Of a stretch of 64,000 bases of DNA, positions 28,642 through 63,943 are shown in pieces. The stretch spans positions 7,790,324-7,854,323 of the forward strand of contig NC_088299.1 in assembly GCF_032854445.1 (NCBI RefSeq), written 5' to 3'. The position numbers and the translations under genes are program-made. This DNA is from Liolophura sinensis. Lineage: Eukaryota > Mollusca > Polyplacophora > Chitonida > Chitonidae. Each line of letters starts with the position of its first letter. Position 1 is the stretch's first letter. A model generated the notes under the pieces. That model was given only the letters and a program-made list of their open reading frames with translations. It made no database searches and was not told the DNA's origin.

Positions 28642-31600
28642 CTGAAAAGAAAGAAAATCTCACAGTATATGAAAATGAATGGAAAAATGATTATAGAACA
28701 CATATTGTGTCCGAAATAAAAGTTTGAAATTTTAATCCAAATTAGAAATTTAACCTGGAGTGCTACTTTTATAAATATATATGGTCCAAACATGTTTAAA
28801 TTCATATTATATCTGATCAGGCCATTTACACAGTGTCAAGTTGCACTGTACAAGGGCCATAATGACCATCCTCCAGCTATATTCATTTAAAAGCAAAATT
28901 TTTTAATAAACTGTCAATGGTCATATAATTTGTACAAATTCAATTAAGATGTCATCTTGTCATTTCAAGCCAATTGCACAAAGCCAGTTTAGATTTAGGA
29001 CAGAGTGTGAAATTTAATTTTGACACATATCTGGTAACCACTGGAGACAAACATGAGAATAACTGTCCTGTGTTTACATACAAACAGATGCACACTTTGA
29101 AGTTCCTGGGACATGAACTACACGGTATATTGAAAATTTCAATTTGGCTGAAGTCAAAATCCATTTCCGGAATTGACCCCTATATTAGTTATGCCATTTA
29201 TTCTGCCATTCTGAGATGTGTCTCTTAGGCCTGTGACTTACCGTCATCCACATCCTGTAACGTGTCCAGACATCCAGCAGCTGAATCCTCCAGAGGGCCA
29301 GGCTGCAAGGGAGGTAAGCCTCAGTCTTTGGAGACTCCTTACATCTAAAGAAAAACAAACAATAAAAGCAAATTTAGTTATTGTTATTCACTGATTTGAT
29401 TGATGATTTAAAGGTGTGTTCAAGACTATTTCACTTATACAGCAGGACCCAGCAGAGCCATAGGTAAACCCACGACCATCCGCAAGTTGCTGACAGGCCT
29501 TCCCACGTGACTTCCCACGTGCAATAAATAAATTGCAGTGGGTTTGGCAAACTTAACTTCATTACTCAAGGGCCGATCAGCAGGAAATTGTGAGACAACT
29601 ATACCATATACACATAAATATATACATCAGCTTTTCAAATCTTTTTTATTTCATCTAGATCCTGAATGACATGAAATGTCTCAGAAAGATTGAGAATAGT
29701 CAGAGAATAGACAGACAACAGACATGGAATAGATTCCAGTCAGAATGTAGATCTTGCATACATTGTCAAGAAAACAAATTTGCAATAGATGCGACATCTC
29801 ATCCACCCATTTCTCCCCCACGCCATCTTCTCTTACATCTTAATCTGGAATTCTAATGAGGCCGTGCTTTGCGCCATGTCAAACCAATCAGAAACATGCC
29901 CACACATCACTCACAACCTAAGTGCATATGGTTACAAGGCAATACAGTGTGTTTGCATGATGTAAACGAAAACAGCATCATGCATGATGTAAACGAAAAC
30001 AGCATCATGCATGATGAAAACGAAAACAGCATCATGCATGATGAAAACGAAAACAGCATCATGCATGATGTAAACGAAAACAGCATCATGCATGATGTAA
30101 ACGAACACAGCATCATGATCATTCTCAGGATACTTTATCTATACATATATATATTTGATCCAGTATCGTCTCTTCTTTTAAGTAAATGACACATGTTAAA
30201 AGTTACGAGGTCAAAAAGCTGAATAAGCTAAAGACAGGAATAGAATGAGCGACTTAAAAAGCAGTGGTAGACACAACCATCTCAAGACTGGAGGAGGTAT
30301 TCAATGTGGCCATACCTGCTATAGAGTTCAGTGAGAAGTGTGACGTTACTTCTCATGGCTCGGCGCGGCACCCTCAGTACACGTAGCACACCCTCGTTAA
30401 GTTGTACACCCTCCTCTACCATGAAGGCCAGGTTAAATATTGCCTATAACAAAAAAAAAAAAATCTTCAGTGCAAATTAACAGTGGAATAGAGTTGTTTT
30501 ACGTTGTTTATAAACGTTTATATGCAACTCAAATAAAACTTGCTTTAAAAATTTTAAGTACATGATTAATCTCAAAATTTGGACGTGCATAAATCAAAAA
30601 TTCCAAATTGAATACTAAATCAACATTTCAATTAAAGTGTAAAATAAGGCTGATCAAAATCAAATAAAAATAGATTACTTGAAAGAAGCTAAACTTAAAG
30701 TGAAATACAATACAGTTTTATTTCTGTCAACTGAATATGATACAATAACTACGTTCGGCACAACATACATGTGGATCTCTTTTTAGCGCAGCCCTGGTGT
30801 AAAAATCCACAGCGCGATCTGCATCCCTGTTACCCTCACAGCCATACCAGTGATAATCTCCCATCTTTATTAAAGCTACAACAACAACATGATGTAAGTC
30901 ATCACATCAATAAGATAAATGATATAAATAATGAAAAAAACACACAAATTCCACTTTTACTCCTATTTTGTGCTGACACTAAACCATTAGTTTGGGACAA
31001 GTGGTTCAGATAGTCGTGCAAAATGAACCCCTTTCAAAATTCACGAATTTTTTACTGATATGACAATTACCAATTTAATGTCTAGAGGAAACCAGAGTAC
31101 CCACAGTGAAAAAACACTACTGGCTGACTCTCCTTTGTGTGACTGTCATATTCATGGAAATTTCCAGCAAACTTCATCCCAGAATGGGAACTGTATTACA
31201 TAACTGAACTTGTCTCTAGTCTTGTACTGTATTTTACAAAAAATATTGTTGATAAAACAGCTATTAAACTCCCTGATGACTTACCATATGGATCTATGTG
31301 TTGTTCTTCTCTCTGAAGAGAGATGTTAAAGCGATGCCATTGACATTCCTTTTCCACATAAGTCACTATACCTTCCTAGTCAAAAAAAGAAAAATATACC
31401 ATGCTTAATTAAATATTTGCATTTCCATACACATCCCCCCTAATGATTATACACTCTAGAGCACAAAGCACAAAAGTATTTTACTGCGAGTGTTCCCTTA
31501 GTCCGACCACTACTGCATCTCTGAAGTTGTAAAATTCAAATTAACACTGTGTATAATCTGCAAAGTGCATTTTTATCATGCTTTGAGAATGAGAAAATAG

Positions 31601-34600
31601 TATCAAAAAGTCTTCAGACATATGCCATACCTCCATCTGCAATACGATAAAAATTAAGAATATAGCTTTCAGATATGAAATTCTCTATTCTCTAAAAATA
31701 ATCAGATTGCGAAATTAGCATAAAAAGGTATTTTATTTATTTATTTATTTCATTGGTGTTTTACGCCGTACTCAAGAATATTTCACTTATACGACCGCAG
31801 CCAGCATTATGGTAGGAGGAAACCGGGCACAGCCCGGGGGAAACCCACGACCATCCGCAGGTTGCTGGCAGACCTTCCCACATACAGCCGGGCATAAAAA
31901 GGTAATTAGACAGCCCTAAACATCTACATGTACCATGCCTCCCATACTAATTTTAGAAACTCATACATGAATTGGGCCGTGGTACTAGCCCTGTTTTGGT
32001 TCTGTGTCACTCACCAGTACTGACAAACCATAATTAAGAGTATTTAATAAAAAAATTCCTCCCACAGATAAATGCTGTTGCAGAGCACATATAGATAAAG
32101 AGTATTCCTTGCACATTGTGGTTGAATGTATGTTAAAAAAAAACCCAATCAGCTCTAAAAACAATCCCATTATAGTAATCCTAGAGTTCCATCTGTGGCA
32201 TAAAGTGGGATAACTAACTTACCTGGGAGCAATCAAGAGGAGATAACTCTAACATACAAATTCACTTTGCTGACTTGGAGAAGATGTTTTCATAGTTGTG
32301 AATGTGCAAGTCTAAGGAACAGTATGTTACAGAGACATTTTTTTTTTTAATTACATACCTTATTTTCCTCACAGAGAATAGCTAGGTTAAAATTGCCCAC
32401 TTCTATTCCACTTTCAGCAGCGAGTAAATAATAAAACAGAGCCAGAGGTCTGAAACACAACATTTGATCAAACTCACAAATAGTCAAGCTATTTATAAAG
32501 CTGCAGTATTTCACTGAACAATTATACTACATGTAATTACCTGTTTTATTCATCAAATAATTGAATTTCTTGTAGCTCTATTTCAGGCAGAATTGAAAAA
32601 TTTCCTTCAAAACATCAAGTTCAACAGAAACCATTTTCTAATTGCAGTATATTTTAAAACAACATAAAAATAAAAATGGATGGAAATATAAACACTTACA
32701 TGTTTCCTTCCTTGTAAGTTTTCAAAGCTTTCCTCAAAACATGGCCTATGTGAGGATTCTTTTCAGCCATAAATCGTGCCCATCTGCCGAAGGAAATAAT
32801 AAATTTTGTCAAACCATCATGCAAGTGTCATGTGGACACATTTTCTTTTTTCTGTGAGATACTGTAGCAGCATCATTCAGCTCGAGCAAAGATGACCTTT
32901 TAGAGGTGGCTAAATTTTAATATGCAACAGTGAAAAAATTAGAAATACAGGGGAATTCTCCTCGCTAACACTTCCCTGTCCAAACTAAGCTGCATAAGGC
33001 TTTGTCCAATATTATGTGATTCAGTCATATAACTTTTTCGTTTAGAGATAAACTGCACATAAACACCCTAAATGTATATATCACATTGGGTGCAGGGAGT
33101 GAAATCACTTTTCAATGACTTGATGTTAGATCTGAAGTACACCTTTCCGGTATATTGTTGATTGGCATATTACACCATGCTAAAGAATATTACCTACATA
33201 TGATGGCAATCAGTTTTATAGGCAAAGAAACCCTGAGAGCAAACTACCAGCCTTTTGCATGTAAGCTGTTTGGTCTTTTCACCTGTCCAGAAATCTCATT
33301 GAGTATGCTATACATGTGACTGACAAGTCAATACCCACAAACTGCATGTAAGACTACCTGAAAAGTACTACAAAACCCTGTCGGCTACTTATTGCCATTA
33401 AGGCTTTGCAAAGGAATCTGTTAATTACCAATTTTTGTCAGTATATGTTACATTAACGCACTTCCTTAGTCAATGGGTACGCTTCCTTCCTTTCTCATTT
33501 TCTTGTTTTTTTCTTTCTTATTTGCATTGGCAGTACAACCTGTTTATAAACATTTGACTTCTATGCACTTTTATGTTACACCTCATACAATCAGTGTTAA
33601 CTTTTGAAAATCAACATGCACTTAAAACTGTACTTAGGTTTAACGAGAGCCTTTCTTTTACCACATGGCCACAAAATGTAACATATCACTGGAGGTGTGG
33701 GTTTAACCCCGGCTTTGGCGATTATTATACCCCAGAAACTTTGGTCTCCCCCACCCATAAAACTGACTGCCATTGTATAGCATGATAATTCTGGAATGTA
33801 GTGTTAAACAATAAATTAATATTTAAATAAACAACGAGTAGTGACTCACTCGACAGCCATGACAGTGTTTGGGCTTAGCTGGTCTGTGCCCTTTATCAGG
33901 AACTGTGACAGGATCACTCCAGCGTCAAACTGGTGACGAGCTGCTGCCCACTCAAAACAACTTAAACGCCTTGTGCTAAGGAGAATAAAGAAGAAAGAGA
34001 ATCAGGGGGTATTTACAGTGTAACCTAAATCTCCATGTTAAATGTCCAACAGTGAATGCAAGAATACAGAGATATAAAGTTAGTATATTACCTTGTCAAT
34101 AGTGGGGTTAATATGTCAGTGAATTATCTTGCCAATACTGTGGTTGGGATGCCAGTGTTTTACTTTATCAACAGTGTGGTTGGGATATCAGTGTAGTACA
34201 TTGTCAACAGAGTGGTTGGAATGTCAGTGTAGTATTTGTTAATAGTATTTTTGGGATGTCAGTATATTGCCTTGGCAATAGTGTAGTTGGGATGTCAGTA
34301 TATTACCTTGTCAATAGTGTGGTTGGGATGTCAGTATATTACCTTGTCAATAGTGTGGTTGGGAAGTCAGTATATTACCTTGTCAACAGTGTGGTTGGGA
34401 TGTCAGTATATTACCTTGTCAACAGTGTGGTTGGGATGTCAGTATATTACCTTGTCAACAGCGTGATTGGGATGTCAGTATATTACCTTGTCAACAGTGT
34501 GGTTGGGGTGTCAGTATATTACCTTGTCAATAGTGTGGTTGGGGTGTCAGTATACTGCCTTGTCAATGGTGTGGTTGGGGTGTCAGTATTCTACCTTGTC

Positions 34601-37600
34601 AACAGTGTGGTTGGGATGTCGGTATATTACCTTGTCAACAGTGTGGTTGGGATACTTCCCCGTCAAGTACATATGTCCGAGGTTATGTCCAGCATCAGGA
34701 TTGCCCAGCTTGAAGGCCCTTTCTAAGAAAGCTGCCGCCTTCGTGTAATTCTTCTCCATTTCCAGGGCATGCCAGCCTAGAGCGCTGAGGGCATTTGGGT
34801 TACCCTGAAACATACCAGATTCAGGAGAAATGGTTAATTAAGGAAAGCCTCTTGTTTCCCTGTACCAATCTAGAGGATGGTTCCACAAAGCCATTTCTAC
34901 CTTAAGTCACAATTCAAAAATCTTGATACACTGCAGCTTAATTTTTCAGTACTGGAAGTTGAATTTTAACACACCTGTCTCAAGATGACATTGATGAGGT
35001 GGTCAGAAATTTTCTAAAAACCCCAAAATAACCTTTCTGATATGAACAAGTCATATTCTAAATTGTTAAATTAAGTCAGTATGTAGATAAAATACAAATG
35101 AAATAACCTACCCTTTCAGCTGATCTCTCCATCAGCTCCAAGCCTTTAGTTACATTCTTTTTTGTACCTTGTCCCTACAAAAATACAATCATTTAAATGA
35201 CAAGTACATGTATAAGTATACCTAAACAAAATAACTGATGACCAGCACTAATAATCATTATTAATTATCACACATAAAAAGAAATTGTCATGAGAATACT
35301 GTTTTTTTCAAATTACAGTTTCCACTCACCTTAATACTAAAAATAGTACGATGTGGAAAACAAAGCAGGACAGACATTTCCACAAGGGGGATGAATCAAT
35401 CAGAATAATGCTACAATTAAGCTGATATACAGTAATTACAGTTTCCATTCAGATGAAAAACAGACGAAGTCATACAAGTATTTTGAGCAATAACAAGCAG
35501 GCCTGGGCAATGAAGGCCAGAAAATTCTTAAGAGGGTCTGAAAATACCTCACACTACCTGCAAATTACATCAGCAAGCACCTGTTCCAACAAAACCTGCT
35601 GCTTTTGTTTTGTTTCGATTTTTTTTCAATTTTAAAGAACAAAGTCTGAAATGAACAAATCAGAGGAAAATTCTCATGCCTGAACAAGAAATTAAAACCA
35701 AAAAAAAAAAAGGGCAGATACTCACCCTCATGAGAACAATCCCATAGTCGTACATAGACACTGGGTCTTGCTGTTCAGCTCCCAGTCGGAAATACTCCAG
35801 TGCCGCCTGAACATTACGCTGCAAACCCTGACTACCCCAGAAGAGCGATCGAGCGACATATTGCTGAAACAATTCATTTATTTATCTCATTACTTTTTTA
35901 TGCCGAACTCAAGAATATTTCATTTATATGACAACTGGTTTTGCTGAGCAGTCCATGCCAGACCAGCCTAAAGGTTTTGAGTAGCTAGCCACAAGCGCGC
36001 CATTAACTCACTTACAGCTGGCTCTTAGAATTATCACTATGTTTCTCCACTATGGTGGCCAGTTCACTAGAATACTCTTTCAGAATTCCAACTTCAAGCC
36101 ACAGGCACACCCCAGCCTAACCACTAGCACACTAGTGTCGCATCCCGAGGATATGGTCAGTCATTTGCTATATGCAGTAATTTAATCTTTAAATACACAC
36201 AGAAACCAAACTAGAAGCTGTAATTTCAGACAGACTGATACATCATTGAAAGTTCCAAAGCTTTTGGGTTTTATACAAAGGGTTAAAAGATGAGAATAAA
36301 GACAATCTGCATTGTAGAACAGTATTAAACTGTTAATGGTCATATAACAAAGAGATTAAATAACTTAAGCACTACAATACCAAAGAGGCCCGTTTCACAC
36401 AGCGCACTTAACGCTACATGCACGTATCTTGTTGATGCTATATCACCATGTTTCACGTGAATGTAGCACTACAAGCGCTTTTTGAAACGGGGCCCAGATG
36501 ATTATAGCAGTGCACTGTACAGCACTGATTTACCTGCGCTCCCAACACTCCCTGTTTAGCCTGGTGTTTCATCCACATAAAGATGTCCCCTTCTTCATCC
36601 GTTTGTTCTTTCATCTGAAGTTCATCAGTTAACCTCACTGACTCTGTCACAATCTGTAACAATGATGATACAATGATTCAGATACATTCATTCAGTCACA
36701 ATCTGTAACAATGTTGGTGTATCTGACACAATCTGTAACAATTATACACCCATTTTGTAACATTCTATTTCATGATGATCTGATTCTATCACAATTTATA
36801 ATAATTATACACTTAATCTGTTACAATTTGTAACAATGATACACCAATTCAAAATCTATAAGTATTTATTGCACTGATATCACAATATGCAACAATGATT
36901 TAATGTTTCAGTGCCAGTAAGACAATCTCCAACAATCTGAAATAATGTCACATAAAATGATATGAGTGAGTGAGTGAGTGCTTATGGTTTAACAGTGTAC
37001 TTAACAATTTTTCAGCCATATGACGACGAAGGAATCCTTACAGTGCATGTAATGTGCCTCCTTGTTGCAGGACCCATTTCCAACGCTCTTTTATCTAGTG
37101 CTGCTTCACTGAGCCGACTTACGGTAGGCAAGTAAGCAGCCCCGCCCGAGCCATTATATCAATATGGGTCAACCAGTCGTTGCACTATCCCCTTCATGCT
37201 GAACGCCAAGCAAGGACGTTAGAACTTCCTCTTTTAAAGTCTTAGGTGTGACATGACCCAGGATTGACCCTAGATCTACTGCTCCCGAAGAGGAAAATGA
37301 TATGAGAATTCACTGCACCAGATACTTGTAACAATAATATTTGAGGAAATGAAACTTAAGACATATATGACACTGTCTTACATCTGTGTCTTTGTGTATT
37401 TCTCTGTCCTCTCTTGCCTGTTCAGCCACATACTTGTAATACACTGAAAACAAATATAAGCATTCACCTTTCTATAAATCCAGTCATTATATTAACTTGG
37501 AATAAAGACATACAAACTTGTACCTAAAGTTATTACTATATTCTTGAAGCAGTATGTCATATGACCAACAACAGAGAAACTTTTAACTGACATTCGGAAG

Positions 37601-40600
37601 TTCAGTAACTAACAAAAGTTTTATTATTCAGAGTAGTAACAGATTAAAGTAAAACCAGCAAATCTGGCCCATTAATGTTAAGAGGTAGAGAAATTATGGT
37701 AACCTCCATCAAAACATGAAACAGAACTAACTTGTTTTCTCTTTCTCAGAAACTGCAATCAGGATAGTTGTGCTATGTGAGTTTGAAGGCTACTTATATA
37801 CAGCCATATTTAGCTTAAATGTGAATTCTAAAATTCACATTTTCAGTATTGTTTGAGAAGTGCACAAAATTGCCTTCTTTGGTGTATATTATATGCATTA
37901 TTTACCGTCTACTCCTCTAAAATTCTATTTAATAACATGTAGATGATAAAAACTGTTCTGAATACATGCAACAAGGCAAGCTTACACATTAAATCATGAT
38001 TAAGGACCTTACTAAACCTATCATGAAGAGAGAGAAATTGAGACAAATGTGACGACTCACTAAAAGCCTGTTCCTTGTCCAGTGGAATGCCGTCCAGACC
38101 TAGGTTGTGTTTACTAGCCAGGGACATCATGGACAGGCGGTGTCGTTCAAGCGATGCCAGCATGAGAAAAGCGTGGGACTGTAGGCAAAAGTAAAAAGCT
38201 TGAAACATAACTTTACAGAATTATTCAATGCCATTGTTTTGTCATATTTTGACAGAATTTAAACAACTTTATTTATTTATTTATCTATTTATTTATTTAT
38301 TTGAGCATTTGTTTAATGCCATATATGTTTAATGCCATACTCAGCTAGAATGGTCATCTGTTTTTACGAGTGGAGGAAACTGGTAGGTCATATTGGTTGA
38401 AAGCAAACTTCATACAAGCCCACACAAAAGTGAACTGTTGATCCCCTCATTGCCACTATTAAGGGCCCTACAACTATGGAAGCAGGGAAAGCTGGGAAAG
38501 CTGGGAAAGCTGGGAAATTTAGAAAATTCCCTGTTTGAGAATAATATTATTGACTACATGTCTCATATAACCTTGTGACTTGCCCTTGGTCATTCTTTCC
38601 CGGTCTGCTCTCTTTAACCGCATATTAAACAGGCAAATCTGGAGAAGGCCAAAACTTGGCTAATTCAAAACCTCTCCAAAAACTTGCATTGAAAATTTCC
38701 ATGTAGTAACATGTACTTGTAATTTTGTCATTAATTTTACATCACATCAACATAAGCTTTCTATGGGGGGGATGAAGGATTTGATTCGGCAAAATTAAAA
38801 AAAGATGGTAATCAATAGAAGCGGTAAATGTTTTAAAGCTAGTCCCCAGAAGCATCACATGTATGTGTGTAATGACATCAAGACAATGATTTCATGTCTA
38901 TGTGAAAAACAATTAAATTGCCTTTCATTACTTCCACATTCTCACAATTATCATCATTATAATGTACCAGACTTACCTGTATCTCATCAGACTTCACCCA
39001 GAATCCATTGTTCAGTATGACCGACAGCATGTACATGGCATCGTAACTGTCGTAACACGCAGCCTGTTTCAACAGTCTGATCACTGAGGGCACACTTTCC
39101 ACAGAGTTGTCCTACACAGACAGATAAAAGTTGTTTATGTGACAACAACTAAGTCTACTTGTAGTCTACAGTACAGCTGGATCCTAACCATCAATCCTAG
39201 GAGCATGGTTGATCTACAGTACAGCCTAATCCCAACCATCAATCCTAGGAGCATGACTGACCTACGGTACAGCCGGATCCCAACCATCAATCCTAGGAGC
39301 ATGGTTGACCTACAGTACAGCCCAATCCCAACCATCAATCCTAGGAGCATGGTTGACCTACGGTACAGCCAAATCCTAACCATCAATCCCAGGAGCATGG
39401 TTGACCTACAGTACAGCCCAATCCCAACCATCAATCCTAGGAGCATGGTTGACCTACAGTACAGCCCAATCCCAACCATCAATCCTAGGAGCATGGTTGA
39501 CCTACGGTACAGCCAGATCCTAACCATCAATCCTAGGAGCATGGTTGACCTACAGTACAGCCAGATCCTAACCAACAATCCTAGGAGCATGGTTGACCTA
39601 CGGTACAGCTGGACCCTAACCATCAATCCTAGGAGCATGGTTGACCTACAGTACACCCCAATCCCAACCATCAATCCTTGGAGCATGGCTGACCTACAGT
39701 ACAGCCATATCCTAACCATCAATCCTAGGGGCAAGGTTGACCTATGGTACAGCCAAATCCTAACCATCAATCCTAGGAGCATGGTTGACCTACAGTACAG
39801 CCAGATCCTAACCATCAATCCTAGGAGCATGGTTGACCTACAGTTGACTCAAGATTAAAGGGAAAAACATTAACATGCTGACCTTTACACGTGTCAGCGG
39901 TTCAAATTTTATAAATTGTAGGTCTTGTGTAATGTATCGACATGACTCATTACATATACATTTTCAACAGAGGCTTTTTAAGGTTTTTATATAAGGACAA
40001 AAAAGTCAAATATTTCTGCGTAACTTTGTACCCAACATGAAACAGTGATAAATTTACTGCTAAGCCAAAGAACTCGTGTCCGTTTCCATATTATGAAATA
40101 TTGCCATGGTTGAACAGAGCCGTCCTGTGCAGCGTGAACTTTATAGAAAGCAAAGTGTTACATACAAATATATTTGTCGGCACATATATAACTCTGCCAT
40201 AAATGCCTCTAAGTAGGCATGTTATTTAATAATTAGAGAAGTAATTTATATTAAACCAAAACATCGTATACTCAAGACGCCGGGTACAAACTTGAATCCC
40301 CTGTCCTCATGAGAACGGTGTATACGGGTGGTGGGTCAAAACAATAGGGATCCCAAACAGTAAGCTATTAAAACTCGAATTTTGTGCAAAAATCGTGTAC
40401 AAGTAAATATGCTGCGGGCCCTCACAGTGTTCATAACAGACATGACGGTGTACAGGAAAATGGTCCGTATGTTGCGTTAAAACATCTGATGATCATGGGC
40501 TGAGGGCATGCTGACAGTCCGCCAAGGGTCGGCCAAGGATCCACTTAAAATGGCCAGAGGATCACGTCATATGAAGGTGCATGGGCGGCATATCGTACAC

Positions 40601-56364: not shown

Positions 56365-56384
56365 TCACTTCTTCCCAGTCAATC
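56365..56384 (-). CDS. CTCF: CTCF terminal coding micro-exon
   Basis: After the acceptor TTCCTTCAG|GATTGAC the frame, entered in phase 1, reads (G)LTGKK and then the stop TGA at 56367-56365. Only 20 coding bases are involved, so the call depends on the phase match and on the good acceptor. An AATAAA signal follows at 56278-56283. Confidence 0.65.
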
Positions 56385-59300
56385 CTGAAGGAAAACGAAG
56401 AGAATGTCAAATATAGTCAAAGGTCAAATGAAATAATGTAGCCATACATAATCTTACGATAACAATGCAGCATTTTAGGTAGAAACTGTAAAATTATAAT
56501 TTTCCTCTATTTAACTGGCTTGTATGTGTAGTTTACTTTGTACAGTAGTTTGCTTAAAAAAACCTGACATGCAATACCTGTTTGATCCTGAAGTTTCGTT
56601 TCAGAGATTCAAGACTTTCCATTGTTTGTTTCTAAGATTTTCTACCTGCCTGTTTGCTTGACTGCTTAAATCTGATTGATTGTAAGACTACCTACCTGGA
56701 TGTTTCTTAGACTGTCTACCTGGTTGCTAATGCATATGCTACATGCTTGTTCAGGAGATTGTTTATGAAACTGCCTTCCTGTTGTTTGTGAGATAGTGTA
56801 CCTGCTTGTTTGTGAGACAGCCTTCACGTACCTATTTGTCTGTGACATTGCCCAACAATTTGTTTGTAAGATCGTCTACTTGCTTCCTTTTGTCTGAGAG
56901 TACCTACTTGTTTGTGACATTGCCCACCCATTTGTTTGTGAGATTCTCAGCTAGTTTTAGAGATTGCATAGTGCCTGTTCATGAGATTGTCTACCAGCTT
57001 GTTTATGAGATTGCCTACCTGCATGTATGTGAGATTGTCTACCTGCTAGTTTGTGAGATATCCTACCAGCTTGTTTGCGAGATTGCCCATCTCCACTTGT
57101 TTGTGAGATAGTCTACCTGCTTGTTTGTGAGATTGCCTACCTGCTTGTTTGGCAGCATTTTCCAAACGCCTTGATCTCTTTGGAGAGCTGACCTCTATAT
57201 CAGCCTTACGCTTTCTAGCTCTGAAATACAGAAAACAATTTGCATGCACGAATTTGGACAACAACTTTCCCTCCTGTAATAATCTCAGTGCTGCCAAAGA
57301 GAACTGAAGATGACTGTTGGTCTGGGTGAACAACTTGGCTCTATGAACCATTATACATACACCTCAGCATTCATATCAATGACAGGTTAAAAGAACACAT
57401 TTATACAACCTATACATTAAATAAGAGAGCTGTATTAACTGTGTGGAATTCTATTTTTTTCACATTTTTTAAAGATTTGTAAGAGAGAAAAACTGTTTTA
57501 AACGTCGTTATTTTCTATAAAATCCACCGATTTGAGTCACGCCAAGTTTTAGGCTTGTTCAATGAAAGACCTTTCCTCCTCTTAAATATTCATTCCAATG
57601 TCTCTTGCTTCAGGTTTTACTCCTGCCATATGATTAACAGGCATTTCCAGTATTGTGACAATCATGCATTTTAAAGCATGTGAAAGTAAACTCTAAAGGA
57701 ATTTGGGATGTACTAGAGGGTCACATCATGCATACACACGTGGCTGTACAATAGGCTGCCAAAATGCGTCTGAAATGCCATGCCCTCAAGCTACTGGGCA
57801 AAGATAAGCACAATGAAGTATGTAATCTGTTAAAATGGTGGCCTAAAGGGTATTTCTAAGACTTTGATGTTTAACTATTAAATACTCCAATAACAAGTAC
57901 TGCTGACAGAAAATTGAGATGTTTTATTTAACCTTCTGTATAACTCTTTCATTTAAGGTATACATATAAGTTGTATAAAGGTGTTCTTTCCTCTAAACCT
58001 GACAGGTGAAATATCCATATTAAGGACACTTAGTCTCAGGAAGAAGTTTTTAATGGGCTGATCAACAGACTAAAAAACCCACAGCCTGAGAATTCTATCA
58101 ATCTATCAAGTAGACAAAACCTTATTCAAATGTAGCTTTACTGACATGTTCCCCAGAGTTTTACAACGTATACATGTACAAGTGAGGCTATTTCACATAC
58201 ATACAGACATGTTAATATATATACTAATAGTTAGAGAAAACTGGACAGATATCGGGCAAAACCAATTATACACCTGCAGAGCTGCCAATAAAAAGACATA
58301 TCAGCTGGTGCAGAATGGATTCGAAGCTGCATTGTGATTGTTGAAAGAATGTAGTGAACAATACAAAACTGAGTCATTGAAGTATGACAGGCACTTGCCA
58401 AACCATGATATGGGCTAGTCATTGAAGTATGACAGGCACTTGCCAAACCATGATATAGGCTAGTCACTGAAGTATGACAGGCACTTGCCAAACCATGATA
58501 TAGGCTAGTCATTGAAGTATGACAGGCACTTGCCAAACCATGATATAGGCTAGTCACTGAAGTATGACAGGCACTTGCCAAACCATGATATAGGCTAGTC
58601 ACTGAAGTATGACAGGCACTTGCCAAACCATGATATAGGCTAGTCACTGAAGTATGACAGGCACTTGCCAAACCATGATATAGACTGACTTTGGACACAC
58701 ATTCACATCTGACTACAAAAAAAAAAATCCTCTGTGGCTCACCTTAAGCTTTTGTCCTCTTGACTGTCTGGCTTAGGGCTGGCTGTGACAGGGGATACCA
58801 CACCTTTGGGTGAGGATCGAGTGGTCATTCGGCCACGGGGAGGCAGTATAGGTGTGGAGGATGGTGTTGTCTGGACTTCTGGTTTCTCGCCTTTAACATG
58901 TGAATCAACACACTCCTCCACCTTCTTTTTAGGAGGACGTCCCCGGCGTCTTGGAGTTGGTGCTTCTGTAAAAATTGACAAGCAAAGAAGTTAAGACTAC
59001 ATCTAAATGATGGTATGCAGTTATTTAGTTATCTGGTAAATGCCTTTCTCTTCACTAAAACTATCACAATATATTACTGATGCTTGGCCATATGCACATT
59101 GAAGTTTAGTGAGAATTGCCTCAAAATCACACACAGTAAAAAACATTAATCGTACATTTCTACTTTTTACATGGTGTTTTAATAAGGTGTAAGCAGGTAA
59201 ATAAATACATGTAGGTAATAACAAAACGTTAATCAACAAAGTATTAGCCAGTAGACAGTTGGTCTAGTTTAAATCATAGGTTGCATTCGGAGGCACACAT

Positions 59301-62300
59301 GCATAACACAGATTCACAGACTTTTTTTACACCTATAATGTGCAAGTGCATGTACGTATAAAGGGTAAAGTACTTGCATTTCTCTTCACTCCTGAATATT
59401 TTTAATTAAGCACCAGGTCAAAAGTATCACAGTTTTAAGTTTACGGTGTACTGTTTTTACCCTGTGCAATTTGTGGTTTTGTGGCCACATCACCTTCCCC
59501 TTTCTCTCCTTGGCTTAGAGCAGGCATGCTTTCTTCAGCGGTCTCTGGAACTGCATTAAGAGTAGTGGACTCTCGTCCCACAGACTGAGATGGCTCAGTG
59601 ACACTTTCAACTGCCGGAGACGGTTCCACTGCTGTAGTCGCCTCTGATATTGTCTCCACTACAGTCCTCTTCACTGCTGACATCTCCACTGCTGTCATCT
59701 CAGCTGGGGACATCTCCACTGCTGTTGTGTCCTCTGATGTTGTCTCCTGTGCTTCAAGTGCAGATGACTCTTGATCTGCGGTACTCTCATCCACCACCGA
59801 TTCAATTGGTTCTGAGGTCTGAACTTCTGTAGCTTTCATTTCTGGTTCTGAGGGTTCCTCTTGTGGGAGCGTATTCAACAAAGAGGCTGCTGATTTACTG
59901 GCAGTGGGAAATTTCTGGGCACCTCTGTCCGACCTGGACCCTGCGTAACTCTTGTAGTGCTTTTTCACCTTTTTTAATGGTACATATGTTCGCTGCGTTC
60001 CATCAGATACCTCCTGAATTGTAAATGAAACTCCCTTGTGTGAAGACTCAGTTTTCCTATTTTTTGGTGCTTCAGGTGTACTGTCTTCTTCCTCCGATTC
60101 AAACTCAACCTGGGTTCCTGCCTCCTGGCACACTTGATTCTGCAAAAGAAATTAGCAAACTGTAATCCACCTATTTATGACTAGTTGTAACTTCTACATT
60201 AAACTCAAAGAATATTTCATTTCTATCATGGCATATACTACCCAACAAACTTGCTGATATAACAAGGTTCACTGACCTACAAAGAACCTTGACTATAACC
60301 AACAAAAAAGTGCCCTTTATCATCCAAAATAACTGAGAAGGCATTGTAATTCAAAAAGGTAGATGCCACTGCTGTTTGAAGATGCCCCAACCAGACTTAA
60401 ATTTTAAAGGCATGCAAAAACTGAATCGATGCTGACTGACTGATTGACTTGTATATGGTGGATATACAATGTAGGAGTAGGATATCCTAGGTTAAACCCT
60501 ACAGCCTCAGTCACGCTTGAATTATTCTGTCAAACCTAAAAATTCAGCTCCGGTTAGGCATTGTCTGGACTTCATAATTTCTCACCCCAGCGATGATGGG
60601 GCATCCCTTTAACAACATGTATCATTTAACTTACATGTACTGGAAAGGCTCCCGACAATACAGCACAATTTGTTAAAATGTTGCTTGAGAGATGTGAAAT
60701 TTCTGATCTGTTAAGCACACATGTAGTTTACTGTAAATCTTCAACCTTTTCAACCAATGAAGCACTATTTTCAGTGCAATTTATGCATACAATTATGGTG
60801 ACAACACTAAAAATTGTGTCAATAAAGAAGAATAAAAACTGTGCAACTTATTTCTCTACATCCCATAGTTCTCTCAGAATGTTTCAAAATATTGCTTCGA
60901 AAGATTGAAGATTTAAGGTATTTGTAGTGTCTGTAGGGTCTTCATTATCTTTTTTGAGCACAAAGCTACCCTGGAAAAATGGATAGCTATACTGTACCTG
61001 ATCCATTTCCTACATAAGTAGTAGGCTTCGCGTAGCTAGTAAACCATCTTTAATGAGCCCCTTGAGTGAAAGTCATAACCTCTATATCTACTCACCTCAT
61101 CCAGATGGAGCTCTTCCTCCTCTGAGGGGGCAGTTACTTGGGGAACAGAGGCTGAGGGGACTGTTTCTTGAAGGACATGCACTGAGGGTACAGACTTGGG
61201 GGGTCCATTCACTGAATCTGGTGTAGTCTCAGTGATGGAGCTATTCTCAGATGGACCAGTAAGAGGCTGATCAGGAATGGACTGATCAACAATAGATTCA
61301 CCAGCAACAGACACATCTGTAATGGTCCTAACACCCTCATCCTCAGATACATAAGGGTTGCCTTTCCCTCCCACTCGCACCACTTTAACTTTAGAGTTGA
61401 CAGGGAGCTGTCCCATGTCCTCTGCTGAGGTGTTTACTTCTGTAACAGTGTTCTGGTAAGTCTGCACAGCTAAGTCCACCATGTTGTCAGTGGACTTGTC
61501 TTCAACTTCACTCGGGTCTTCCTCCATGGGATCTTCCACAGGGTCATCAGGGTTAATCTCTTCCACATGGCCATCCAGGTGGACAATGACCACTTGTGGG
61601 GTTTTACCAGCGGGGTTCGTGAGGCGGCCCTCCTGCAATTCGGCCCGAATGTTTCTCTGTAGCATTTCAGTGGATGGGCCTTCAGTGGTTTGGAAGACCT
61701 TGCAAATGTGACTATCTGGGTCATGAAGGGCCATGTGTCTCATCAGGTTGCCCTTATGAGCAAAGGATCTGTCACACTCAGCACAATAGAACAACTTATT
61801 TTTAGGAGAGGGGGCGATGTATTCCGGTGTGTGGTACAAGTTCTTGTGCCGTTTCAAAAGCTGCTTTTGTCTGAAGGATTGTCCACAGCCATCACATTCA
61901 TACGGTTTTTCACCAGAGTGTGTCAGCATATGACTGTCCAAATGACGCTTTGACAAAGCAGCATACTCACATTTATCACATTTGTAGCATTTCTCACCTT
62001 CATGAGTTCTTACATGCACCTTGAACTGGTAGCGATCTGGAAAGGTCTGAAGACATCGCTCACATTGTAAAGGCTCCTCTGCCGTGTGTAGCTTCTGCAT
62101 GTGGATTTTCAAGTCTGTCTTGCGTCCGCAAGTAGTGGGACACAGTTCACACTGAAATACAGGCTTGTTGCCAGAGTGGATGAGTCGGTGAGCCTTGAGG
62201 CTATTGCTCTGGGTGAAGCGTGACTGACAGATATCGCACTCGTACGGTTTCTCTCCTGTGTGAATTCGCAGATGACGCTTAAGCTTGTAGGCATCCGGAC

Positions 62301-63943
62301 TAGCATATGGACAGTGCGGACAGTGATAAGGGCGCTCCCCAGTGTGAGATCTCATGTGTCGCTTAAGTTTACTCAGCTCCACACTGGCGTAGTCACACTC
62401 TGTACACTTGTGTGGTTTCTCAAATGAATGGCGGTAACGGACATGGCGTACAAGTTCCCCAGAGGTTGTGAAACTGGATTCACACTGTCGACACTTGTGA
62501 GGCCGGAGACCAGTATGCGTGTTGACATGATTCTGCAGGGAGGCTAACGTTTTAAACCCACGGCTACAGATACCACACTTGTGTGGACGCTCTTGGGAAT
62601 GTGATTTCATGTGGCGGGTTAAAAGGTAACGCTTCGGGCTGGTATAGTTACAGTAATGGCACATCAGCTGGGAAGGGGAGGTAGGTGATCCAGGCTTTTT
62701 CAAACGGATGATCTTTCTGGCGGTTCCGTGTTCATCAATTATCTCTTCAATCACCTCTCTTGTATCGTCTCTTGTAAAGTCGTATACTGACATGTCCACA
62801 CCCATACCCCTTGTAGAGCCCTCTCGTTCACCCTCAGGCTGTGAGACGATCAGCACATAGCTCACTTCACCACCTTGGTTTAACTCTGATGGCATAATGG
62901 TCACAGTTTGGTAACTGTTCCCTGGAGTGTTCAGGATGACCTGACCATTGGGCAAAGTGGAAACCTCTGATGTGCCCATCACTTGTATGTTCTCTGTGCC
63001 ACTACCATCAGGGGCCTGCACTGCCACAAGCTGAGGCTGGGAACTGTCAGAACTCTGCAAGGCCACCAGATGAGCTCCATGAAGTTCTGGCTGGGACACT
63101 GTCACGCTCTGCAGGCTTCCCAAGGCACTGCTGGAGTTCGCCGCAACGGACGCCAAGACCGCGACTGGGTCTGAGCCATCCATGATGGTTTCTCCTTGCA
63201 CAATCTGCTGGATTTGCTCTTGAGTTGCCTGGCTCACATCATCCTCACCAGACTGCAATGTTTCTTCCGAGAACTGAGAAATGTCCACGGTGACATTCCC
63301 CTCTCCCATCTGAACAGCATGCTGGCCATCAGGAGCAACCATCTGAACTGTGTGTTCACTTACACTGGTACTTGTAGTTATCACATCCTCTGGAACCTCC
63401 ACGCCTGCTTGAGAAATACTTCCCTGTTCGGCAACCGTTTCAAAGTCTGTCCCCACATGAACCTCCGAAGATCCTGAGAGCTCAGCAATCTGCGCATGGA
63501 CGGCTGATAACTGCTCAGCAGCATCTAGGATATCCTCTTTTACTACATTCGACTCTTCTAGGATTCCAGATGTCTCAGGATTCATTGCTGCTTCTGCCTC
63601 GGCGGCTGAGGCCACAACGAAGCCCTGAATGGGCAGAGAGACAGGCACATCAGCACCATTTTGTTCCTCGCTATGTTGAAGAAGAGGTTGACCATCATAA
63701 TAAACAGTGTCATAGTTAACAGTCTCTGGTTCTTTATCAGCTGATGTTTCTGCCACTTCTTCTGGGTTAGTCTCAGGATGAGGGATTTGGGTGAGAGTGG
63801 CTGCTTGAAAATGAGGCTGCTCACCTCCTTCTATCTCCTTATTGAAGCTAACCAGGTAATTTTGAATATCTGACAAATTCTGACAGTCTGGGTTTGGATC
63901 TGCCTCTGCACCACTCATGTTGCTAAATTACATGTAGTAAGGC
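56365..63943 (-). CDS. CTCF: CTCF, 11-zinc-finger insulator protein (whole gene, 5 coding exons)
   Basis: This is the orthologue of CTCF, the nuclear DNA-binding protein that defines chromatin loop boundaries with cohesin. Coding exons are 63918-61096, 60139-59461, 58965-58743, 57220-57141 and 56384-56365; all junctions are GT-AG and all phases agree (0,1,2,1). The predicted product is about 1274 residues, much longer than the roughly 730 of vertebrate CTCF, mainly through long low-complexity N- and C-terminal arms. Residues 419-732 form eleven consecutive C2H2 fingers with the CTCF finger order; fingers 3-5 carry near-identical TSGELVRH, SVELSKLKRH and AYKLKRH helices. VDMSVYDF at residues 374-381 corresponds to the vertebrate cohesin-binding YDF motif. 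Exon 3 encodes an AT-hook (RRRGRPPKKK) and exon 4 a basic NLS-like stretch. The 5' UTR exon lies outside the window, because an acceptor is seen at 63944-63945. Confidence 0.95.
56600..57155 (-). repeat. Degenerate 24-bp minisatellite in CTCF intron 4, overlapping the donor
   Basis: About twenty units follow the pattern CTACCTGCTTGTTTGTGAGA (plus strand) with variable TTGC ends. On the coding strand the best units read ACAAGCAGGTAG, which recreates the exon 4 donor. The right end of the array runs into the last bases of exon 4. Confidence 0.8.
57141..57220 (-). CDS. CTCF: CTCF coding exon 4 (basic NLS-like segment)
   Basis: The acceptor is TATTTCAG|AGCTAG (phase 2) and the donor is CAAGCAG|GTAGGC (phase 1). 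It encodes ARKRKADIEVSSPKRSRR followed by LENAAKQA, a likely nuclear localisation signal. The 24 bases covering the donor are the first unit of a degenerate repeat filling the next intron. A second donor of the same quality and phase lies exactly 24 bases downstream (exon end 57117) and would add eight residues. Confidence 0.8.
58365..58690. repeat. 45-bp minisatellite, about 7 copies, in CTCF intron 3
   Basis: Units of 45 bases (core GTATGACAGGCACTTGCC) are nearly identical, differing at a few positions such as CATTGAAG/CACTGAAG. Because 45 is a multiple of three the array stays open as a 15-residue repeat on the minus strand, but it lies wholly inside an intron. Confidence 0.9.
58743..58965 (-). 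CDS. CTCF: CTCF coding exon 3 (AT-hook)
   Basis: The acceptor TTTTTACAG|AAGCACC joins in phase 1 and the donor CTTAAG|GTGAGC ends in phase 2. The segment TPRRRGRPPKKK is a canonical AT-hook core (RGRPPK). Vertebrate CTCF has an equivalent AT-hook-like KKRRGRPPGR in its C-terminal arm, so this exon confirms that the downstream exons belong to CTCF and not to a separate gene. A second basic-proline stretch (PPRGRMTTRSSPKG) follows. Confidence 0.85.
59461..60139 (-). CDS. CTCF: CTCF coding exon 2
   Basis: The acceptor is TTTTGCAG|AATCAAG (phase 0) and the donor is GCACAGG|GTAAAA (phase 1). The exon encodes 226 residues of C-terminal arm: an acidic start (FESEEEDS), a basic KKVKKHYKSYAGSR segment, then a long S/T/E/V-rich stretch with many TAVEMS-type short repeats. 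Reading on past the donor meets a stop at 59441, so an alternative terminal exon is formally possible, but the phase-matched splice to exon 3 is better supported. Confidence 0.85.
61096..63918 (-). CDS. CTCF: CTCF coding exon 1 (N-terminal arm and all zinc fingers)
   Basis: The exon encodes 941 codons, starting at ATG 63918 (context CAACATGAG) and ending at the donor GATGAG|GTGAGT, phase 0. Residues 1-400 are acidic, Q/E/S-rich and probably disordered. Fingers 1-11 follow as one block (residues 419-732), with standard TGEKP-type linkers between fingers 4, 5 and 6. After finger 11 comes a second acidic arm rich in P, E, S and T. An intronless zinc-finger block differs from vertebrate CTCF, whose fingers are split over several exons (known of the family). 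The open frame continues about 20 codons past the donor to a stop at 61036, so intron retention would give a truncated 960-residue form. Confidence 0.95.
63928..63933 (-). promoter_or_regulatory. Start-stop minimal uORF (ATGTAA) upstream of the CTCF start
   Basis: If the acceptor ATATTTCAG|GCC at about 63943 is used, the CTCF leader contains ATG immediately followed by TAA, ten bases before the main ATG. Start-stop elements are known to stall scanning ribosomes. The function here is inference. Confidence 0.4.

Follow-up and report, generated by a model that had tools for sequence, protein, structure and literature searches.

Where a minisatellite lies across the end of an exon, does it give the gene a spare splice donor that is used, or is it a boundary copied into its own intron while the original donor does the splicing? 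The question is raised by the CTCF gene of the chiton Liolophura sinensis, on the minus strand of the window (the whole stretch of 64,000 nucleotides that was analysed), in which the last bases of exon 4 and the first of intron 4 belong to a 24-bp tandem repeat. The answer favoured here, with some confidence, is that the array is probably a boundary-born minisatellite of the type named 'mirage' in amphioxus, and that donor 1, the one at the end of exon 4 proper, is the one mainly spliced.

That the gene is CTCF, as in the original prediction, is borne out by the zinc-finger frame of exon 1, whose best PDB relative is human CTCF (E 2.8e-110; best non-CTCF chain 2.5e-67). From ZF1 on, 164 of 307 residues are identical in the alignment with human CTCF, and 10 C2H2 patterns are within the aligned block. 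Five exons, all on the minus strand, read through in frame to 1274 residues ending ..RARKRKADIEVSSPKRSRRLENAAKQAGLTGKK. The coding part of exon 1 (61096..63918), with the zinc fingers in a 941-aa open frame, ends at the donor GAG|GTGAGT. For exon 2 (59461..60139) three ends were tried, of which 59461 alone stays in frame through to exon 5; the inferred exon 2 donor scores 4.6 bits. Exon 3 (58743..58965), which encodes the AT-hook-like PRRRGRPPKKK, is an open frame between the acceptor TTTTTACAG and the donor AAG|GTGAGC. Exon 4 (57141..57220) has 80 nt encoding a basic segment, with its last 10 bases in repeat unit 1; it is flanked by the acceptor CTGTATTTCAG and the donor CAG|GTAGGC, and the frame that it keeps closes in exon 5 as ..NAAKQAGLTGKK followed by the stop. 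The coding part of exon 5 (56365..56384; GLTGKK, stop TGA) follows the acceptor TTTTCCTTCAG, and AATAAA at 56283-56278 on the same strand goes with this exon.

When CTCF-like paralogues were sought in the 609-Mb genome, 78 matches were listed (48 of 562 candidates being scored) and all but the gene's own locus were 28–46% identical; among the candidates scored it therefore appears to be the only CTCF-like gene of the genome. The genome search found no second allele or paralogue of the array: array plus exon 4 gave one full match, as did the gene. As expected, no CTCF orthologue was present in the bacterial and archaeal contigs. Ahead of the fingers SVYDF (window 62776-62790) aligns with the same letters in human CTCF, and is presumably the cohesin-binding YDF motif. 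Coding exon 2 has an imperfect 15/30-bp repeat (TTAVEMS..TAVEMS, window 59625-59748), a second repeat which could vary the protein. Intron 3 has a 45-bp array (window 58372-58683, 98% matches) that is about 60 bp past the exon 3 donor without touching it, and is likely to be length-variable.

The 24-bp repeat predicted to contain the end of exon 4 and the start of intron 4 is real. Tandem Repeats Finder (TRF) places it at 56901-57151 (score 232, 10.6 copies, 72% matches) with an additional 48-bp row back to 56759; further phased units extend to about 56632, and the autocorrelation at 24 is 0.49. On TRF and the phased units together, the array across the exon 4/intron 4 boundary occupies 56632..57150. 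Twelve positions within it agree with unit 1 in at least 18 of 24 bases; the best match outside is 17/24 (112,954 positions, window 1-56500, both strands). From matches of at least 18/24 to unit 1, 16 units were phased by hand, with start-to-start spacings of 24 (nine times), 26, 23, 50, 54, 59 and 67. Unit 1 (57127..57150) contains the boundary itself, being made of 10 exon and 14 intron bases, and holds donor 1 (last exon base 57141); the similarity of the array to exon 4 ends 10–11 bases into the exon. Unit 2 (57103..57126) holds donor 2, CAG|GTAGAC (last exon base 57117), which is in frame. Splice signals are kept in the copies, the +1 G in 14 of the 16 units and the +2 T in 15.

Unit 1 agrees with the leave-one-out consensus at 23/24 and is the most central of the 16 units (mean identity 19.0/24). 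A search of the 609-Mb genome for the unit with up to 3 mismatches gave 7 matches, all inside the CTCF array (reversed control 0). Since unit 1 is the most central and the unit is found only at the CTCF locus, local growth out of the boundary is the most likely origin of the array. A 24-bp stretch over the exon 4 donor, with its 10 exon and 14 intron bases, would have been duplicated in tandem, and the copies then amplified into intron 4 by slippage or unequal exchange. Unit 1 would stay near the ancestral sequence because it is still exon end and donor, while the other units drift as intron, with donor 1 as the main splice site. We infer this route, including the order of exon first and array second, from the units as they now stand.

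In a genome rich in repeats an ordinary intronic minisatellite could also touch a donor by chance. Of the window, 5.7% is minisatellite sequence (11 arrays of at least 90 bp, hand-picked from its TRF list), and with random placement the probability that at least one of the 8 CTCF junctions would be covered is 0.37; the central place of unit 1 among its copies argues the other way. A different idea, that the array supplies CTCF binding sites for autoregulation of the gene, comes from the look of the unit, CAAGCAGGTAGGC, which by eye resembles the CTCF core plus an extra base. With an approximate JASPAR matrix, however, the best array score is 0.24 of 30.6 bits, and 87% of 300 Markov sequences score as well or better; on these figures binding sites were rejected, having next to no chance of being the explanation.

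If the array grew from the boundary, its copies of the donor become the issue. Strengths in bits are from approximate human splice matrices, applied here to a mollusc. Donor 1, CAG|GTAGGC at 57141, scores 10.0 bits with a U1 pairing energy of -10.7 kcal/mol. The original prediction had the same donor 24 bases on. CAG|GT does recur exactly 24 bases on, at 57117, but it continues as GTAGAC and not GTAGGC; with the +5G lost, it scores 5.8 bits and -8.0 kcal/mol, weaker by 4.2 bits and 2.7 kcal/mol, and the claim that it competes with donor 1 on equal terms is not supported. What was foreseen about the product holds: splicing from 57117 in place of 57141 keeps the frame and adds GRQSHKQA, for a predicted 1282 aa instead of 1274, and this extension would be beside the basic NLS-like segment (KRKADIEVSSPKRSRR).

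Beyond donor 1, six array donors reach at least 6 bits (57067, 57019, 56928, 56908, 56832 and 56696). The two that match donor 1 in strength are CAG|GTAGGC with last exon base 57019 (57013..57021, +122) and, from donor scoring, CAG|GTAGGT with last exon base 56696 (56690..56698, +445), and neither keeps the frame. The 26-bp step after unit 2 puts the donors at 57067, 57043 and 57019 out of frame. When exon 4 is extended past unit 2, frame reading gives the TAG at 57046..57048 as the first in-frame stop. The later listed array donors are out of frame or beyond this TAG (57019 is both), and among the listed donors donor 2 alone is in frame. If 57019 were used, or the intron retained, the predicted protein would have 1299 aa and the tail GRQSHKQAGRLSHKQVEMGNLANKLVGYLTN; in the 57019 case its stop codon is 27 nt upstream of the junction.

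In the 15 units other than unit 1, the donor columns score 0.793 versus 0.791 for the rest (9th of 24 rotations); conserved no better than the remaining columns, they give no indication that the spare donors are under selection. RNA folding gives low accessibility at all six donors tested (0.001–0.014; regional median 0.030), donor 2 being slightly more open at 0.014 than donor 1 at 0.001. Of intronic 24-mers, 61% leave a given frame open when added as an extension; with the coverage of the window by minisatellites given above, an open copy that keeps the frame is no improbable event in itself.

The original prediction went on to propose that donors 1 and 2 are both used, that CTCF is made with and without GRQSHKQA, and that copy number at the array edge alters the tail. 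It is correct in phase, open frame and the eight residues, and donor 2 outscores the inferred exon 2 donor and so could be used. The loss of the +5G with the weakness that goes with it, and the fact that donor 2 is the sole listed array donor to keep the frame, are against it. Nearly all splicing of CTCF exon 4 most likely goes through donor 1, a dominance that we infer; the spare in-frame donor is weak and probably seldom used. A change in copy number would be expected to alter the protein by way of a donor only when units 1 and 2 are touched.

Known systems bear on both sides of this. Mirages in amphioxus are minisatellite-like duplications of exon/intron boundaries in Adh3, globins, troponin C and PGBD5 (PMC3087553, PMC3902484). 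Boundaries of both kinds, 5′ and 3′, can be affected, and lengths differ from one haplotype to another. Mirages have been proposed as a source of new introns and are reported to be without effect on regular splicing (PMC3087553, PMC3902484), which for arrays so comparable is a further point against two donors in use at CTCF. The CTCF array is like them in having tandem copies over an exon/intron boundary, many with splice signals, though it differs in being in a 609-Mb genome with contigs of up to 96 Mb, in its 24-bp unit and in its gene. On anatomy it fits the mirage definition.

The splice-donor minisatellite of human IFI6 (6-16) was reportedly described by Turri et al. in 1995. In minisatellites of this type successive units are reported to stay in frame. 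Several donors in use in IFI6 come from its repeat units; two downstream units act as donors, giving three mRNAs, and downstream units can lengthen the product (PMC4526556). Since repeat-unit donors are used in IFI6, alternative in-frame donor use in CTCF is possible, but it is not supported. Units downstream of the exon carry donors in both cases. In CTCF, however, only one array donor is in frame and it is weak, whereas in IFI6, as described, downstream donors are used. With the 26-bp step directly after unit 2, the CTCF array lacks the in-frame succession of units needed for a protein-length system. Taken as a whole, regular use of two donors in CTCF is unlikely.

Human segmental-duplication genes also have variable internal tandem repeats at their exon-intron boundaries, which are said to be able to produce novel introns through the activation of cryptic splice sites (PMC2812944). 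The CTCF array shares with these the position of a minisatellite at an exon-intron boundary. They are described as recent expansions in primate paralogues, most with alternative transcripts, whereas the CTCF case is one old degenerate array known from genomic sequence. In the model of Rogers, introns are gained via tandem duplication of AG/GT segments (as cited in PMC3087553). The tandem copies with AG|GT in CTCF are of this kind; the intron 4 acceptor TTTTCCTTCAG, ending at 56385, is unlike the model in being outside the array, and so nothing shows that intron 4 was made by the array. In the literature searched, with its partial coverage, no boundary-spanning minisatellite was found for CTCF or for molluscs.

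The genome has other arrays at exon ends. The sole weak genome-wide relative of the CTCF array (69% identical over query bases 98-231, E 2.3e-6) is in an SLC36-like gene at L002:1140-1665 (G000:C8), where an exon ..LLIVDAAIVISQT ends TCACAAACAG|GTGGGT, which is unit 1 of an array with a 28-bp period. On its own the array-bearing exon matches nothing in Pfam or PDB; the exons before and after it match Aa_trans. This relative, likewise at an exon end, is what would be expected if a mobile repeat family with a donor had inserted at CTCF, but the genome search with up to 3 mismatches found no copy of the unit elsewhere. The period at L002 is 28 bp and the exon part reads ISQTG in the SLC36-like frame, so independent birth is the simpler account; a mobile origin, with the unit found at the CTCF locus only, was rejected as highly improbable.

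Seventeen arrays with a unit donor of at least 8 bits were inspected, 14 of them from a 170-kb sample. Five of these 14 begin at a recognisable exon, and as two of the five are copies of one, they represent four separate origins. A DIS3L-like exon has a weak PDB match to DIS3-like exonuclease 1 (E 0.019), an Ig exon matches I-set at E 0.0055, below the curated cut-off, and an EGF-type exon, in two near-identical inverted copies, matches cEGF at E 0.0018, also below cut-off. A TBCK-like exon itself has no match; its neighbours match RabGAP-TBC (above cut-off) and Pkinase (just below). The array at L016 likely starts at an exon, and no recognisable exon was seen, among the 14, at L007, L015, L017 (four arrays), L019 or the second L022 plus-strand array. 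In the exon-end arrays the exon part of the unit is roughly 4 to 40 bases. That several arrays start at exon ends in this manner is a second point against mere chance contact at CTCF.

Acceptor sides are involved as well. In a minus-strand gene (G000:C10) two RabGAP-TBC exons each have an array spanning the acceptor side (L031:1826-2195 and L031:511-772), in which copies of the acceptor and of the exon start (RQGDMFNVL.. in the first) lie upstream; this mirrors the arrangement in CTCF.

How common such arrays are was addressed in 264 kb: the window, three stretches around the SLC36-like gene, and 17 stretches of 10 kb taken at even spacing from a single contig. A unit donor of at least 10 bits was present in 11 of 53 arrays, with 1.2–1.4 expected from non-repeat segments of the same length (Markov shuffles 2.2, reversed motif 1). 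For the 170-kb sample (L006-L022) the count is 9 of 37 against 0.96 expected; arrays within one locus are not independent, and counted by locus the excess is 7/14 against 0.93. A plain count of the donor motif agrees (7 of 37 units; reversed motif 1), and one of 20 permuted control motifs at 10 bits reached 7 (1.2 expected). There is no acceptor excess in L006-L022, with 6 of 37 at 8 bits or more and 5.9 expected. A second set of 12 arrays (L024, L025, L031-L049) showed no donor excess (0/12 at 10 bits or more, 0.61 expected), and acceptors of at least 8 bits in 6 of 12 versus 1.89 expected (P 0.005).

An exon-based test took 31 of 33 RabGAP-TBC matches, leaving out C7:55680458 and L021 (gene already known to be array-bearing); the counts exclude five donors and one acceptor that scored under 5 bits. 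None of the 26 usable donors is tandem-repeated (random positions 5.4%). Of the 30 acceptors one is repeated, and inspection by eye adds another from that gene (L031). Boundary-spanning arrays are present at both exon ends in this genome, and the 0/26 tempers the donor excess of the 170-kb sample. The same negative result favours chance contact at CTCF; set beside the central unit 1 and the exon-end arrays elsewhere, chance is nonetheless a rather improbable origin.

The window has further repeats of other kinds. Between 7288 and 17068 there are diverged direct copies of adjoining pieces, each piece being 85–296 nt long and present two to six times, as would follow from repetition of a longer segment; in four of the copies there are TTATCAGCAGGTGTCGG-like sites (12–16 bits by an approximate CTCF matrix). 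A dispersed SINE-like repeat (ACCCACGACCATCCGCAGGTTGCTG..), molluscan in appearance, occurs in both orientations at 29447, 31822, 42788, 45583, 54804 and other positions. Scans against Rfam at gathering thresholds and for tRNAs gave no hits. A long 36-bp array at 34082-34653 is within an open frame of more than 200 codons on one strand, and a long 48-bp array at 39166-39844 is within open frames of that length on both.

For CTCF itself the consequence of its boundary-born array is probably small, and the wider interest is in the class of arrays in this genome rather than in eight residues. Minisatellites over exon boundaries, known from amphioxus, have been put forward as one way in which new introns arise. 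If this genome has them at the frequency that the 170-kb sample suggests, they would provide many natural tests of how the spliceosome chooses one donor from tandem copies that are nearly identical, and would allow the gain of introns through tandem duplication to be tested directly. That this animal, which is outside the cephalochordates, has a large class of boundary-born minisatellites, especially at donors, in thousands of genes and with a CTCF tail that varies between individuals, is a tentative proposition and the balance is somewhat against it. Were the large class true, the genome would hold stacks of spare splice sites with pieces of exon attached, a standing supply for new exon ends and new introns.
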